Origin: Gallionellales bacterium GWA2_60_142
Lineage (GTDB): Bacteria > Pseudomonadota > Gammaproteobacteria > Burkholderiales > Gallionellaceae
Assembly (NCBI GenBank): GCA_001801085.1
Contig: MGWR01000050.1
Span: forward strand, 1-64,000
Direction: 5' to 3'
DNA: 64,000 nt
Under the pieces are notes generated by a model that worked only from the letters and a program-made list of their open reading frames with translations, did not search any database and was not told where the DNA came from. Of this stretch, positions 47,249-55,782 are shown piece by piece (the first letter of the stretch is position 1; every line of letters begins with the position of its first letter). Position numbers and translations under genes: made by a program.

Positions 47249-47803
47249 TTAATTCTGGTCCGTGCGCGAGGGCGGCTTGCCCAGTTTGCGTTGCAGCGTG
47301 CGGCGATGCATGTTGAGCGCGCGCGCAGTGGCCGAGACGTTGCCGTCGTGTTCGTGCAGCACGCGCTGGATGTGCTCCCATTCCAGATTGCCGATCAGCG
47401 TGGGTTGCACCTTCGGTAGCGTGTTTTCGTCGGGCGAGTGGCTGAAGGCGGCGACGATTTCGTCGGCATTGGCGGGTTTGGCGAGGTATTGGGTCGCGCC
47501 CAGTTTGATTGCCTCGACGGCGGTGGCGATGCTGGCATAGCCGGTCAACATCACGATACGCGTGTTCGGGTCGAGTTCGTGCAGCGCCTTGACCAGCACG
47601 AGGCCGGGCGCGCCTTCCATTTTCAGGTCTACCACTGCGTATTCCGGCGGGTTGGCCTGCGCCAGCGGAATGGCTTGTTCCACGCTGTGGGCGACGCAGA
47701 CGCTATAGCCGCGCTTTTTCAGTGCGGCGGACAATACCTGACAGAAGGTGGCGTCGTCGTCCACCAGCAGCAAGGAGGCTTGTTCGTTGGCGGTTTCGCT
47801 CAT
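47249..47803 (-). CDS. regA: RegA/PrrA-family redox response regulator
   Basis: A 184-residue response regulator with a receiver domain (phospho-acceptor Asp59 in YAVVDLKMEG; MLTGYASIATAVEAIKLGAT) and a compact Fis-like HTH (NVSATARALNMHRRTLQRKL). This short receiver-HTH layout is diagnostic of RegA/PrrA/RoxR, a global redox regulator of respiration, autotrophy and nitrogen metabolism. It overlaps its kinase gene regB (ATGA at 47800-47803), so the pair is co-translated. Confidence 0.93.
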   Translation of the reverse strand: MSETANEQASLLLVDDDATFCQVLSAALKKRGYSVCVAHSVEQAIPLAQANPPEYAVVDLKMEGAPGLVLVKALHELDPNTRIVMLTGYASIATAVEAIKLGATQYLAKPANADEIVAAFSHSPDENTLPKVQPTLIGNLEWEHIQRVLHEHDGNVSATARALNMHRRTLQRKLGKPPSRTDQN

Positions 47804-49137
47804 GTCCGTAACGGCAGGGTGATTTCGGTGGTCGCGCCGCCGCCTTCGCGGTTGAATAGCCGCACCTTGCCGCTCATTCGTTCGACGGTGGCGTTGGCGA
47901 GGAACAGCCCCAGCCCGCGGCCTTCTTCCTTGGTGGTGAAAAACGCCGAACCGGCGCGGGCGGCGGCTTCCGGTGTGAGTCCCCGGCCGTGGTCGCGGAT
48001 GGACAGCGTGAAGTTGTCGGCATCCCAGTGCGTCTCGATGTCGATTTCGTCCGGGGATGCGTCGGCGGCGTTGTTGAGCAGGTTCAGCAGTGCGGCGCGC
48101 AAGGCGGGATCGATGCGCAATTGCGGTGCGGGCTGGCCTCCTGTCGCGCGGTAACTGTAGTGGATGGTGGGCCGCAGCAGCTGCCATTCGTCGAGTGTCT
48201 CGGCGAGGAATTGTTCCAGCGATTGCTGCGTTTCGCCATCTTGCGCATGGGCGAGCAGCTTGTCGAGGATGCGTTTGCAAGCCCGCACCTGCCCGTCGAG
48301 GATGTCCAGATTCTCGCGCCATTCCGGTTGCATGGACGGTTCGTTCTTTAGTTCGCCTATCACTACCGCGAGTGTCGATAGCGGCGTGCCGAGTTCGTGC
48401 GCCGCACCGGCAGCCTGCGTGCCCAGCGACACGATGCGTTCGTTGCGCAGGGTCTCTTCGCGCGCACGGGCCAGTGCTGCATCGCGTTCACGCACCGCAT
48501 GCGCCATCTTCACCACGAAGTACGCGACCACGACCGCGCTGATGACGAAGCCCAGCCACATGCCGAATACATGCAGATTGAAAATGCTGTCCTGCGGCAG
48601 GGTGCCCATGTCAATCGAACTCATCGCGCTCATGTCATGGCCCATGTGGTCCATATTCGAGTGGTCCATGCCCGACATGTCGCCGCTCATGTCGGGCGGC
48701 ATGGATAGCGGCACGTAATATTTCATTAACAGGGTGTAGCAGCCGGTGGTCAGCGCGGTCATCGCCCAGGTGTAGCGGTGCGGCAATGTTGCGGCGGCGA
48801 TCACCAGCGGCAGCAGGAACAGCGAGATGAACGGGTTGGTCGAGCCGCCGCCGTAGTAGAGCAGCACCGACAGCGCGAGCACGTCCGCGCAGAGTTGCGC
48901 GAACAGTTCCGCATTGGAGACCGGTTTGTTGCTGCGCAGGCGCAACCAGGTCAGCAGGTTCAGCACGGATTGCGCGACGACCGTGGCGATCATCGGCAGC
49001 CATTGCAATTCCATCTGGAGAAAGCGGAACACCAGCAGCAGCGTGGCGCATTGCGCGACGATGGCGATGGTGCGCAGCCACAGCAGGCGACGCAAATGAC
49101 TGTGTCCGGTCTGGGCGGCGAAGGGGGAAGAATTCAT
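47800..49137 (-). CDS. regB: RegB/PrrB-like redox sensor kinase with Met/His-rich insert
   Basis: A 445-residue membrane kinase with six hydrophobic segments. The ubiquinone-binding motif GGGSTNPF (96-103) of RegB is intact. H-box His247 lies in AAGAAHELGTPLST; Cys287 in VRACKRILDKLL aligns with the redox-active cysteine of RegB. HATPase boxes are complete (NLLNNAADASPDE, DHGRGLT, EGRGLGLFLA). Residues 146-177, between the fifth and sixth helices and probably periplasmic, contain nine Met, three His and several Asp, a pattern seen in copper- or silver-binding segments. Close neighbour of a copper chaperone gene. Confidence 0.9.
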   Translation of the reverse strand: MNSSPFAAQTGHSHLRRLLWLRTIAIVAQCATLLLVFRFLQMELQWLPMIATVVAQSVLNLLTWLRLRSNKPVSNAELFAQLCADVLALSVLLYYGGGSTNPFISLFLLPLVIAAATLPHRYTWAMTALTTGCYTLLMKYYVPLSMPPDMSGDMSGMDHSNMDHMGHDMSAMSSIDMGTLPQDSIFNLHVFGMWLGFVISAVVVAYFVVKMAHAVRERDAALARAREETLRNERIVSLGTQAAGAAHELGTPLSTLAVVIGELKNEPSMQPEWRENLDILDGQVRACKRILDKLLAHAQDGETQQSLEQFLAETLDEWQLLRPTIHYSYRATGGQPAPQLRIDPALRAALLNLLNNAADASPDEIDIETHWDADNFTLSIRDHGRGLTPEAAARAGSAFFTTKEEGRGLGLFLANATVERMSGKVRLFNREGGGATTEITLPLRT

Positions 49138-49233
49138 GGTGCGCGATTTTACCGGGTTGCCGATCCGGCAGGGTGCGACAAAATGTCGCATTCCCGCCGC
49201 CGGCTTCCTGTCCAATAATAACGCCAACCGACG

Positions 49234-49310
49234 GATCGTATGGCTTTTCGGACAAGGTGCGGCATCGCTTTTTCCTCCCCGCGCGCCGACAAGCGGCGAG
49301 CCATACGATC
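49234..49310. repeat. 77-bp element with 12-bp perfect inverted ends
   Basis: GATCGTATGGCT (49234-49245) is repeated inverted as AGCCATACGATC (49299-49310). The element occupies the divergent gap between regB and the copper chaperone gene. It is either an operator-like palindrome at both promoters or a small mobile/REP-type unit. No target-site duplication could be confirmed. Confidence 0.5.
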
Positions 49311-49378
49311 ATTGAGCGGCGGCCCCGGATGGAGACGTATAATTCGCGGCTCCAGAATTCTTATCGACGGAAGACATC

Positions 49379-49870
49379 ATGAACAGTTTGTATCGTATGG
49401 GTGGTTTGTTGGCGGCATTGCTGCTGAGCGTCAATGTGTATGCCGGTGATGTGTCGGCGGAAGGTGCGTGGTCGCGTGCCACCGCACCGGGACAGGATTC
49501 CGCGATGGTGGATATGTCCATCACCAGCAAGCAGGCGGCAACGCTGGTGGGCTTTTCCAGCCCGGCATGCAAATCGGCTGAATTGCACAGCATGACGCAC
49601 GAGGGGGGCGTGATGAAGATGCGCGAGGTCAAAAAAGTCGCTCTGCCTGCGGGCCAGCGAATCAATCTCGGCGAGAGTGGCTACCACCTGATGCTGATCG
49701 GCCTGAAAGCGCCGCTGAAGGCGGGCGATGCCGTGCCGCTGACGTTGAGCGTCCGCTTGGCGAACAAGCGCATCGTGAAGATCGAGGCCACGGCGGAAGT
49801 AAAGCCGCTGACCGAAGCCCGTGCTGCGCCGCAGGACGCCGGACACATGATGCATCATAACCATCACTGA
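49379..49870 (+). CDS. pcuC: Periplasmic copper chaperone PCuAC
   Basis: A 163-residue PCuAC-family protein with a signal peptide (1-22, LLAALLLSVNVYA). The Cu(I) site H-x10-M-x21-H-x-M is complete: His70, Met81, His103, Met105. A C-terminal His/Met tail (GHMMHHNHH) adds further metal capacity. PCuAC delivers copper to the CuA site of cytochrome oxidase. The gene is divergent from regB, whose sensor has a Met/His-rich insert, suggesting a link between copper and redox control. Confidence 0.93.
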   Translation: MNSLYRMGGLLAALLLSVNVYAGDVSAEGAWSRATAPGQDSAMVDMSITSKQAATLVGFSSPACKSAELHSMTHEGGVMKMREVKKVALPAGQRINLGESGYHLMLIGLKAPLKAGDAVPLTLSVRLANKRIVKIEATAEVKPLTEARAAPQDAGHMMHHNHH

Positions 49871-49922: not shown

Positions 49923-50939
<1,017 letters not shown>

Positions 50940-53466: not shown

Positions 53467-55782
53467 TCATGCGCCCGGGTAGCTCGATGCTTGTGCGGCC
53501 AGCGCCGACTTCAGCCTGATTATGTTGACCGGCTTGTGCAGCGCCGGCCAATTGCAGTTTGCGGCCTCCCGGATGAACGCGGCCGACGTGTCTCCGGTCA
53601 TCAACACCGCATGGATCGGACTTCCGCGCTTCTGCCGCACCCGGTTCAGGAACTGGATGCCGTTGAGCGAGTCGCCCAGCATATAATCGACGATGAAGTA
53701 ATCGGCATGTTCGATGCCGGGATGGAGCAATGCATCGTCCGGATTATGGAAACAGGTCACGTTTCCGCCCATTCCCTCTAGCAGCGCCACCATGGCTTGC
53801 GCGACCAGCATGTCGTCGTCCAGCACAATAAAGTGTTTGCCCCGGACGAATAGATCTTTGTCGGGAGTCGCGGCAGCGGCGATTCGGTGCTCAATCCGGT
53901 CGGGGATGCCGTCCAGCGGCAAGCTGAACTCGAAGACCGAGCCGCGCCCGACCCGTGATCGGCAACCGATCTCGCTGTGCAGCAGCGCCAATGCCCGCTT
54001 GACGATGGACAGCCCCAGTCCAAGCCCTTTTGTGCGGTCGCGTTGCGGATTGTCTATCTGATAGAACTCGTCGAAGATATTTCCGATGAATTTCTCCGGG
54101 ATGCCTGTTCCGGTGTCCCAAACTTGAAAAAGCACTTTGTCTTTGCGCTGCCGGGCGCTGACCAGAATGGAATTGTCGGAGGTGAATTTGATCGCATTCG
54201 AAACGAGATTCATCATCACGGAGTTGACCAAGCCGATGTCGCTATGGATGAGCAGTCTTTCTCTGGCCGAGATGCGGAAACGGAAATCGATTCGCTTTTC
54301 ACGGGCCAGCGCGGCGAAATTCTGTTCCAGCCAGCCGAATATTTCGGCGACATCGATCGATTTCAGTTCCGGCTTGATGACGCCTGCATCCAGTTTCGAA
54401 ACATGCAGCAGGGTATCGAGCAGGCCGTTGAACGTTGACATCGCCTGGTCCAGTTGCTGGATGATCGTATGTTGCTGCATGGTCGGACTGGTCAGCTTGA
54501 GCGTATCGATGAACAAGTTGGCGGCGGCCAGCGGTTGCCGCAGGTCGTGGCCTGCCGCCGCGAGGAAGCGGGATTTGGCCAGTTCCTTGGTTTCCAATTG
54601 GCGCATCGATTCGGTGAGCGCATCTTCCGCATGCTTGCGCTCGGTGATGTCGTTTCCGACGCTCAGTATTTCGATCATTTTTCCGGTGTCGTCGAATATC
54701 GGACGGTTGGTCCACATCACCCACAGGCGTTCGCGATTCTTCTTGATGTTTTCATTGATGTTCATCCGATACTTTTCCGGATGGGCAAGAATGTCACCCA
54801 TCAGTCTGGACAGGTCGCGCGACGTAGTTTCCGTTTTCGGCACGATGCTGCCCACGATGTTCTGGCCGATTAATTCGTTCGGTTGGTATCCGAACAAGCT
54901 TTCGGCATAGTTGTTGATATACACGATGCGCCCCTGCGTATCCCAGCGCAAGATGATGCTGAGCGCGCTTTCTATCAAGGTGCGGTATTTCTCCTCGCTT
55001 TTGCGCAGCGCTTCCTCGCGATCTTCCTGCACCGCCATCATGTCGTTGAAGGCGTGTGCCATCGCGGCGATATCCTTGGGGCCGCCCGGCTTGGCGCGCA
55101 CCTGCGATTCACCCGTTTGGGCCCGTTCCATGCTGTCCGACAATTCGTCGAGCGGACGTGCCATGTTGCGGGAAAGCGAGCGGATCAACAGAAGGAAGAA
55201 CAGGGCGAAGGAGAAAGAAATGGTCAGATTGGTCGTGAAGATGTCGGAGGACAGTCTCCCTATCCCCGCCTTGCCGGTCACGACGATAACGTGTCCCAGC
55301 AATTCCGGCGCGGCGGCCTCGGCAAGCGGCGAGTCGGCAAAGGGGTGGCTGTAGACCGGGGCGGTGAAATGCCATGCGTTCTGGGTGTCGTCCAGCAGGA
55401 TGGCGGCATGAGAGTCGCCGGTCTGTCTCGCAGGGGGTAGGAATCGTCCGGGGAGATTGTCTCCGTGGGCAACGAGCAGGTGGCCGTCGGTATGGTAAAT
55501 CGCCACCCCGACGACCTCGGGGAAGGTCAGCGTGGTCTTCGCCGCCTCTGCCACATTGTCGGGCGAATCGAAGATCAGTGCGAGCACGCTCTGACGCGCC
55601 AGATTCTCGGTGATGCGCTTTCCGTGCTCGATGATGTCGCGGCTCACGCGCTCGTTGCTTTGCCATGAGCCGGCGATGGATGAGAGTATCGCCAGAAAGA
55701 GGATGCCGAGCGTGACCGTGATACCGAGCTGGCGCTGAAAGGTGAGATTCTTCGAAAATGCCGCGAATATCTTGTTGTTCAT
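53467..55782 (-). CDS. CHASE8-HAMP-PAS hybrid sensor histidine kinase
   Basis: A 771-residue membrane hybrid kinase: helix 1 at about 18-40, a CHASE8-like periplasmic domain (about 45-170, ARQSVLALIFDSPDNVAEAA), helix 2 at about 185-203, HAMP (about 203-255), PAS (about 262-385), HisKA with His412 in AAGHDLRQPLAAANLF, HATPase with intact N and G boxes (NLVSNAIKFTSDN, VWDTGTGIPE, KGLGLGLSIVKRA) and a C-terminal receiver with DYMLGDSLNG (phospho-Asp). The partner response regulator is not adjacent. The CHASE8 domain is related to that in the fragment at 27867. Confidence 0.92.
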   Translation of the reverse strand: MNNKIFAAFSKNLTFQRQLGITVTLGILFLAILSSIAGSWQSNERVSRDIIEHGKRITENLARQSVLALIFDSPDNVAEAAKTTLTFPEVVGVAIYHTDGHLLVAHGDNLPGRFLPPARQTGDSHAAILLDDTQNAWHFTAPVYSHPFADSPLAEAAAPELLGHVIVVTGKAGIGRLSSDIFTTNLTISFSFALFFLLLIRSLSRNMARPLDELSDSMERAQTGESQVRAKPGGPKDIAAMAHAFNDMMAVQEDREEALRKSEEKYRTLIESALSIILRWDTQGRIVYINNYAESLFGYQPNELIGQNIVGSIVPKTETTSRDLSRLMGDILAHPEKYRMNINENIKKNRERLWVMWTNRPIFDDTGKMIEILSVGNDITERKHAEDALTESMRQLETKELAKSRFLAAAGHDLRQPLAAANLFIDTLKLTSPTMQQHTIIQQLDQAMSTFNGLLDTLLHVSKLDAGVIKPELKSIDVAEIFGWLEQNFAALAREKRIDFRFRISARERLLIHSDIGLVNSVMMNLVSNAIKFTSDNSILVSARQRKDKVLFQVWDTGTGIPEKFIGNIFDEFYQIDNPQRDRTKGLGLGLSIVKRALALLHSEIGCRSRVGRGSVFEFSLPLDGIPDRIEHRIAAAATPDKDLFVRGKHFIVLDDDMLVAQAMVALLEGMGGNVTCFHNPDDALLHPGIEHADYFIVDYMLGDSLNGIQFLNRVRQKRGSPIHAVLMTGDTSAAFIREAANCNWPALHKPVNIIRLKSALAAQASSYPGA

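Follow-up and report, generated by a model that had tools for sequence, protein, structure and literature searches.

A RegB/RegA-like two-component system with a methionine- and histidine-rich kinase loop and a probable place in a copper regulon of Gallionellaceae

RegB/RegA is a textbook redox regulator, and the senC neighbourhood of its genes, known in alphaproteobacteria, is poorly explained. This paper describes a regBA-like locus with the divergently transcribed copper-chaperone gene pcuC in DNA of Gallionellales bacterium GWA2_60_142 (family Gallionellaceae), contained in the first 64,000 nucleotides of contig MGWR01000050.1 (this whole stretch is called the window), and compares it with related loci in the family and in a wider sample of the phylum. 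In addition to the senC family, three unrelated families of copper proteins (PCuAC, TonB-copper receptor and Csp1) adjoin regBA in different lineages. Upstream of regB lies a conserved palindrome, which elsewhere in Gallionellaceae recurs next to genes for copper handling and copper enzymes. RegBA probably belongs to a copper and copper-enzyme regulon, the palindrome is likely to be the site of RegA as judged from sequence comparison, and a methionine (Met)- and histidine (His)-rich loop of the kinase may bind copper, for which the chances appear somewhat better than even. The explanation as a whole, i.e., a RegB/RegA redox two-component system in copper-linked form, is given an even chance.

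The kinase gene (47800..49137, minus strand, ATG at 49137) is an open reading frame (ORF) of 445 amino acids that scores above the Pfam cut-offs for HisKA, HATPase_c, and 6TM_PilS. On the NCBIfam model NF033792 (ActS_PrrB_HisK) the protein reached 250.4 bits, which is under the cut-off of 350 and yet the top match of the library, and it is therefore called RegB-like rather than a certified equivalog. The RegB hallmarks are present, including six predicted transmembrane (TM) helices ahead of the kinase core, the GGxxxNPF motif, and the H-box AAHELGTPLS. The ubiquinone-site motif reads GGGSTNPF (residues 96-103; 48829..48852, minus strand), of which G97, G98, N101, and P102 are invariant among 32 RegB sequences, as are the phospho-accepting His247 within the H-box (48397..48399, minus strand) and Cys287 (48277..48279, minus strand), which sits in RACKR after the H-box and aligns with the redox Cys of RegB, a position at which the alpha-type rows shown also have Cys. 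An earlier note, made from the sequence of the window, had described the quinone motif and the redox Cys as kept, and both statements hold. The assembly of this genome is 80.5% complete and the window kinase is its sole full-length RegB match; a search of the family found RegB in 116 of 120 genomes (E <= 1e-40). The regA-like gene (47249..47803, minus strand) abuts the end of regB and encodes a response regulator with a receiver and a Fis-type helix-turn-helix (HTH) domain (Response_reg and HTH_8), which scores 196.7 bits on NF033791 (ActR_PrrA_rreg), its top NCBIfam model, below the cut-off of 250, and of which the HTH sequence NMHRRTLQRKL is close to that of alphaproteobacterial RegA.

The palindrome TGCGACAAAATGTCGCA (49174..49190), a likely RegA box, lies in the divergent promoter region between regB and pcuC, where it occupies the bases from 37 to 53 bp ahead of the regB start codon, 189 bp before pcuC. 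For the comparison, RegB matches were present in 116 Gallionellaceae genomes and in 131 genomes of the phylum sample, and loci were taken from 90 and 99 of these, respectively; collapsing by sequence gave 254 distinct RegB, some of them fragments, of which 249 entered the upstream scans. The pattern YGCGRC-N5-GYCGCR occurs in 66 of 97 distinct Gallionellaceae regB upstream regions and in 94 of 249 overall, against 0.05 and 0.55 expected, respectively, from dinucleotide shuffles. In Gallionellaceae the spacer has five bases in 67 cases and nine in one, with no other length among 0-10; AT-rich spacers predominate, and most boxes begin at -51 to -56 relative to regB. The refined form conserved in the family, TGCGRC-AWWWT-GYCGCA, was detected in 105 of 120 genomes with up to six sites each, whereas a reversed-pattern control was detected in none of the 120. 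In the phylum sample the palindrome is carried by 19 of 131 genomes with RegB (E <= 1e-60) versus 11 of 218 without (Fisher P 0.003). Moreover, five f36 genomes have it 100-139 bp upstream of the regB match, and in the f11 genome G467 (L346), counted as lacking RegB, it lies 38 bp from the frame of a weaker RegB-like kinase.

The general consensus of PrrA/RegA sites is GCGNC-Nx-GNCGC. Two predicted PrrA sites consist of paired half-sites with a spacer (PMC7561615, excerpt), and RegR boxes have also been described (PMC4064962, excerpt). RegA is the preferred candidate for binding the palindrome: in f1 and f36 the sites precede regB, in f11 a RegB-like kinase, they resemble PrrA sites, the HTH is conserved, and ccoN would be a target in common with R. 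capsulatus (PMC9147068, excerpt).

Genes beside the palindrome were inspected in 30 Gallionellaceae regions other than regB, drawn from among the sites listed and chosen blind to the genes, although not at random. In eight of these a copper or copper-enzyme family scored above its curated cut-off within approximately 150 bp: Sco1 (L319), TonB-copper receptor plus Csp1 (L322), Csp1 with a TonB receptor (L324 and L326), Csp1 (L354), MbnP (L335), which we take to be copper-linked, TAT-type NosZ (L350, 992 bits), and ccoN (L329, 649 bits). A further Csp1, at L351, is 1.7 kb from its palindrome and was not counted. In L324, L326, and L354 the palindrome lies 3' of csp1, so that the receptor or the next gene is the likelier target there.

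Copper genes also adjoin regBA itself. The divergent gene pcuC (49379..49870, plus strand), which begins approximately 240 bp from the regB start, encodes a periplasmic copper chaperone of 163 amino acids with a His/Met C-terminal tail, which scored 113.7 bits on PF04314 in a Pfam profile search (cut-off 29.4) and has an intact H-X10-M-X21-H-X-M copper motif of PCuAC from residue 70; the identification as a copper chaperone in the earlier note was thereby confirmed. PCuAC is divergent from regB across much of Gallionellaceae, and also in f5 (G374 and G447) and f7 (G338), where the kinase loops hold at most two Met/His. In many relatives, including a Sideroxydans-like genus, a TonB receptor sits between regB and pcuC, and a rule of fixed regB-PCuAC distance was rejected for this reason. 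Intervening receptors scored 763 bits (L038) and, in another genus, 687 bits (L106) on the TonB-copper model TIGR01778, with a cut-off of 472. A gene that we take to be argB-like (50055..50939, plus strand in the window), used as a synteny marker, follows pcuC with 79-100% identity in related loci, not always directly; since it lies beyond pcuC with and without the intervening receptor, the two arrangements are regarded as a single locus.

In other lineages the adjoining families differ. Two of 34 f36 genomes (G148 and G155) exceed the TIGR01778 cut-off, and in both the TonB-copper receptor is encoded on the same strand 3' of regB, separated from it by 0.84-0.87 kb, which corresponds to the size of regA. 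Csp1 was matched at most approximately 1.1 kb upstream of regB, on the same strand, for 4 of 34 distinct f36 RegB, two of which were confirmed by TIGR04401, and Sco-like matches upstream of regB occur at one locus each in f41, f56, and f59. These neighbourhood counts for PCuAC, TonB, Csp, and Sco are based on local profiles, the TonB one having been built from L038 and also accepting weak receptors, including one close to regB in f13. The Sco-like matches agree with the senC literature: in group 1 systems regA and/or regB are cotranscribed with senC, a Sco copper chaperone gene (PMC9147068, excerpt).

RegB residues 146-177, MPPDMSGDMSGMDHSNMDHMGHDMSAMSSIDM (48607..48702, minus strand), contain 9 Met and 3 His in 32 residues, as the earlier note had stated; at least 12 Met+His has a binomial P of 8.5e-9 against the background of 19/413 in the rest of the protein, and the insert is the densest Met cluster in the window among stop-to-stop frames of >= 100 amino acids. 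It occupies most of the predicted TM5-TM6 loop (residues 142-181; 48595..48714, minus strand), which is free of Lys and Arg and hypervariable among relatives. The AlphaFold2 model of RegB has six membrane helices and a mean predicted local distance difference test (pLDDT) score of 72.9, and residues 143-180 fall below 50. These connect helix 120-141 to a long helix, 182-264; because the latter runs into the cytoplasmic kinase, the loop should face the periplasm. With segment borders chosen by hand, Lys/Arg counts are 0 in loops 1, 3, and 5, 3 in loop 2, 1 in loop 4, and 7 after TM6. The loop is thus predicted to be periplasmic and disordered, and the periplasmic location proposed earlier is supported by such prediction, not by topology mapping.

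An alignment of RegB homologues identified the insert as a real expanded loop, of which the length between KYYVPL and HVFGMW ranges from 24 to 124 residues in the Gallionellaceae examined, and Met/His-rich loops recur in other lineages, so that the idea of an insert unique to the window was rejected. In 55 distinct expanded Gallionellaceae loops Met makes up 11.6% and His 10.4%, versus 2.2% and 2.3% in the remaining protein, and these two are the most enriched residues in the expanded Gallionellaceae loops (approximately 4.5-5 fold) as well as in the loops of f36 (34) and Methylococcaceae (6), where enrichment is 3.6-6.8 fold. Short loops are rich in His, at 22% in Gallionellaceae (47) and 27% in Nitrosomonadaceae (30), and one Chromatiales and one Sulfuricellaceae locus also have Met/His-rich loops. 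In contrast, Pro leads in 32 other gamma/beta and 19 alpha-like loops, in which Met and His are not at the top and His amounts to 3.6-4.3%, and five other stretches of Gallionellaceae RegB have just 2.1-9.3% Met+His. The insert is, by sequence, an enlarged version of a His- or Met/His-bearing loop found in many beta/gamma RegB. The composition is kept while length and sequence turn over, with at least 14 changes between short and expanded loops on a FastTree tree of 149 rows (loop left out; at least L140, L159, and L307 dropped for gaps), and this speaks for metal or oxidant chemistry rather than a neutral filler, without proving it. Nine long Gallionellaceae loops (L042, L047, L051, L056, L060, L061, L065, L069, and L127), which otherwise cannot be aligned, have in common a motif with one Cys, of a form like [YFL]C[RQKI]T, and two of these, L060 and L065, are 112 and 124 residues long and include Pro/Ser-rich stretches.

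The earlier note had proposed, from the divergent pcuC, that RegB may sense copper as well as the quinone state. The copper context proved real and wider than was seen there; the inference from pcuC fails, since short-loop relatives keep the divergent pcuC and Met/His loops occur without PCuAC. Among distinct Gallionellaceae RegB, a divergent PCuAC within 0.9 kb was found for 26 of 29 with short loops and 10 of 44 with expanded loops, and within 5.5 kb for 26 of 29 and 36 of 44, respectively; these counts cover 73 RegB with at least 2.5 kb upstream, after 10 distant g9-like ones were set aside, and those within 5.5 kb are lower bounds, as some loci hold 2.5 kb of upstream sequence and many f36 loci 1.5 kb. 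PF04314 is present in 117 of 120 Gallionellaceae genomes, so its presence is uninformative in the family, and in 39 of 60 chosen genomes outside it. Three f36 genomes, G132 (99% complete), G124 (100%), and G271 (98%), gave no PF04314 match while their RegB carry Met/His-rich loops of 58, 31, and 30 residues between the anchors, which refutes a coupling of loop and pcuC. It does not refute a copper role, given that regB of G132 adjoins a gene for the copper-storage protein Csp1 (L226). The candidate coupling of the insert to divergent pcuC was rejected: short-loop relatives retain the gene, expanded loops often have it farther away, and the traits are unlinked on the tree.

According to the proposed mechanism, RegA would bind the palindrome and so autoregulate regBA, and through the same element would also control pcuC and a wider set of copper and terminal-oxidase genes. 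The Met/His loop would bind copper in the periplasm and adjust kinase output through its direct junction with the TM6 signalling helix; a single kinase would then read oxidase demand from the redox state of the quinones and copper supply from the periplasm. The richness of the segment in Met and His, its predicted periplasmic position, and its connection to the signalling helix make a copper-sensing loop a reasonable proposal, and direct copper sensing by it is plausible on these grounds. That copper on the loop alters kinase activity is conceivable at somewhat less than even chances. The most complete version is more tentative still: a two-input kinase of which the membrane domain would read the quinone pool and the fast-evolving disordered loop periplasmic copper, with RegA setting, via one palindrome, copper import, storage, and delivery together with the copper respiratory enzymes (cbb3 oxidase and NosZ) in Gallionellaceae and some other lineages.

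A number of observations weigh against this copper-linked reading. No copper-family model lies near the palindrome in 22 of the 30 regions. In ten of these the neighbours are outer-membrane-barrel-like proteins with no known function, in four a TonB receptor lacking copper-model support (L332 alone was scanned), in two a cytochrome c (L318 and L348), and in six other or unclear genes, namely an O-antigen-ligase-like gene (L317, and L321 by similarity), a BNR-repeat protein (L336), DsbB with a weakly CoxB-like protein (near L333), and nothing clear beside the palindrome in L325 and L328. In the genome of the window the loose form TGCGRC-N5-GYCGCA is not enriched (6 sites versus 15 for the reversed control) and was rejected as a genome-wide regulon marker, the form with the AT-rich spacer alone being clean; the refined form occurs only twice, between regB and pcuC and at L203 1501-1517 (G000:C61:72378-72394), approximately 100 bp upstream of an ORF recognised by eye as Ser/Thr-kinase-like, for which no copper connection was seen. 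The receptors adjoining regB in L104 and L110 (128 bits each) and L276 score 128-176 bits on TIGR01778. Upstream of regB in Nitrosomonadaceae (30) and Methylococcaceae (6) the local profiles gave no PCuAC, TonB, Csp, or Sco match within 4.5 kb, and the kinases have His- or Met/His-bearing loops all the same.

Further points of this kind concern the loop and the regulator. Loop expansion does not follow copper-gene linkage: on the tree, seven independent pairs contrasting expanded loop with PCuAC within 1 kb split into 0.1 in the same direction, 0.6 in the opposite direction, and 6.2 without difference, and nine pairs contrasting at least 6 Met+His with any linked copper gene into 2.1, 0.6, and 6.3, which is not significant. 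Window RegA has His152 where Rhodobacter capsulatus RegA has Cys156, the copper and disulfide residue upstream of the HTH at which copper-driven dimers form in group 1, so that this copper route is unavailable to it; among 96 Gallionellaceae rows the position is His in 41, Asn in 28, Gln in 13, Cys in 10, Tyr in 2, and a gap in 2. Within the promoters bound in At. ferrooxidans a RegA motif could not be found (PMC5506826, excerpt), and RegBA of Methylomonas controls iron uptake (PMC13274454, excerpt), so the metal concerned might not be copper.

These points bear differently on the competing explanations. An ordinary RegB with a neutral, low-complexity loop, in which any hydrophilic insert would be tolerated, Met and His would have no part in signalling, and pcuC and the oxidase genes would be controlled only via the quinone redox state and the redox Cys, is regarded as unlikely, although the hypervariable length of the loop, its repeated shifts between short and expanded forms, and the independence of its expansion from copper linkage fit such a loop. 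The Pro/Ser-rich stretches in L060 and L065 also resemble, to our eye, the translation of intergenic repeat DNA that was inserted in frame. In addition, alphaproteobacterial RegB acts as a quinone and redox sensor (PMC9147068, excerpt), and short, Met/His-poor loops are seen in the alpha-type sequences shown. Neutral drift would not be expected to converge on Met and His in the expanded loops of Gallionellaceae, f36, and Methylococcaceae, nor to leave the short Gallionellaceae and Nitrosomonadaceae loops so rich in His while other stretches of the protein stay poor in both residues. The composition would also suit, in place of a sensor, a buffer or hand-over site for copper, iron, or oxidants in the periplasm near the oxidases, or Met acting as a sacrificial or sensing oxidant target. 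The loop is Met-rich and disordered, it has a partner in PCuAC with its His/Met tail, and oxidation of the copper-coordinating residues of PcuC has been studied (PMC12860648, excerpt); a kinase would nevertheless be an improbable place for bulk buffering, the loop is directly continuous with the TM6 signalling helix, and this explanation is considered very improbable.

The palindrome, finally, may belong to a separate copper-responsive regulator, with regBA one of its targets and RegB a plain redox sensor downstream. Consistent with this, the named palindrome neighbours are copper, copper-enzyme, and outer-membrane genes and do not form a broad redox set, the 11 of 218 genomes without RegB carry the element, and the At. 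ferrooxidans result mentioned above offers no RegA motif. We nonetheless consider it improbable, since the position of the palindrome upstream of regB is fixed in Gallionellaceae and falls within 100-139 bp in the five f36 genomes, the half-sites and spacer resemble PrrA/RegA sites (PMC7561615, excerpt), the HTH of window RegA is near that of alphaproteobacterial RegA, and RegA of R. capsulatus acts on ccoN (PMC9147068, excerpt). Moreover, G467, one of the genomes counted as lacking RegB, has its weaker RegB-like kinase right behind the palindrome. RegA binding within a copper-linked RegBA system is therefore the preferred reading.

Besides the genes discussed above, several features were recorded in the window and around other palindromes. 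The regB-pcuC intergenic region contains a perfect 12-bp inverted repeat (49234-49245/49299-49310, arms 53 nt apart), which was rejected as a conserved element because no inverted repeat was found in the matching stretch of the close relative L115, and a 24-base pattern on its first arm has a single occurrence in the genome of the window. Approximately 3.6 kb past pcuC, a 771-amino-acid ORF (53467-55782, minus strand) appears by eye to be a hybrid sensor kinase. The ten barrel-like proteins beside palindromes (L320, L323, L327, L330, L331, L334, L351, L352, L353, and L356), found using three query members, are secreted and approximately 320-340 amino acids long, with a Cys-containing mature N-terminus (CGAGFC, CVAC) followed by W-x-x-QG; none of the four that were scanned matched a Pfam family above the cut-off. 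In the complete f3 genome G221, of the same order (L337), five palindromes within 6 kb (at 2397, 4994, 5500, 7328, and 8314) surround a thioredoxin-like protein and secreted proteins reading AHTRLxVP or THTRLxVP, the latter without a family match.

A description of a Met/His-rich RegB loop or of this regulon was not found in the open-licence literature searched, mostly titles and abstract openings, and a survey of the betaproteobacterial copper proteome set metal-sensing domains aside (PMC6769254, excerpt). If RegBA indeed matches copper supply to copper-dependent respiration, the linkage of regBA with copper genes would be explained, and neutrophilic iron oxidisers would have a candidate copper-supply regulator with a testable metal-sensing loop.

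Compared with the alphaproteobacterial RegB/RegA systems (PrrB/PrrA and ActS/ActR), the window system shares the six-helix domain, GGxxxNPF, the H-box, the redox Cys, an adjoining RegA with a Fis-type HTH, and ccoN among its likely targets. A copper chaperone gene adjoins in both, senC there (PMC9147068, excerpt) and pcuC here, and RegA of R. capsulatus binds both copper and the promoter of ccoN (same source, excerpt). It differs in that loop 5 between TM5 and TM6 is expanded and Met/His-rich, unlike the short alpha-type loops shown, which have few of these residues, in that the neighbours are PCuAC, TonB-copper receptor, or Csp1 instead of Sco, in having His152 in place of the Cys of alphaproteobacterial RegA, and in that both window proteins score under the NCBIfam equivalog cut-offs. 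RoxS/RoxR, which we take to be the Pseudomonas-type system, and other gamma/beta RegBA have the same domain plan with an HTH regulator. In f13, taken as Pseudomonas-like, the RegB loop is in contrast short, with 0-1 Met/His in 10 distinct RegB, and in the two genomes checked PCuAC and TonB-copper genes stand together, far from regB. CusS and CopS are periplasmic copper sensor kinases, and window RegB would act alike if its Met/His segment senses periplasmic copper; unlike these it has no predicted folded periplasmic sensor domain, carrying instead a disordered loop on a six-helix quinone-type domain, and its partner regulator is of the Fis type rather than the OmpR type.

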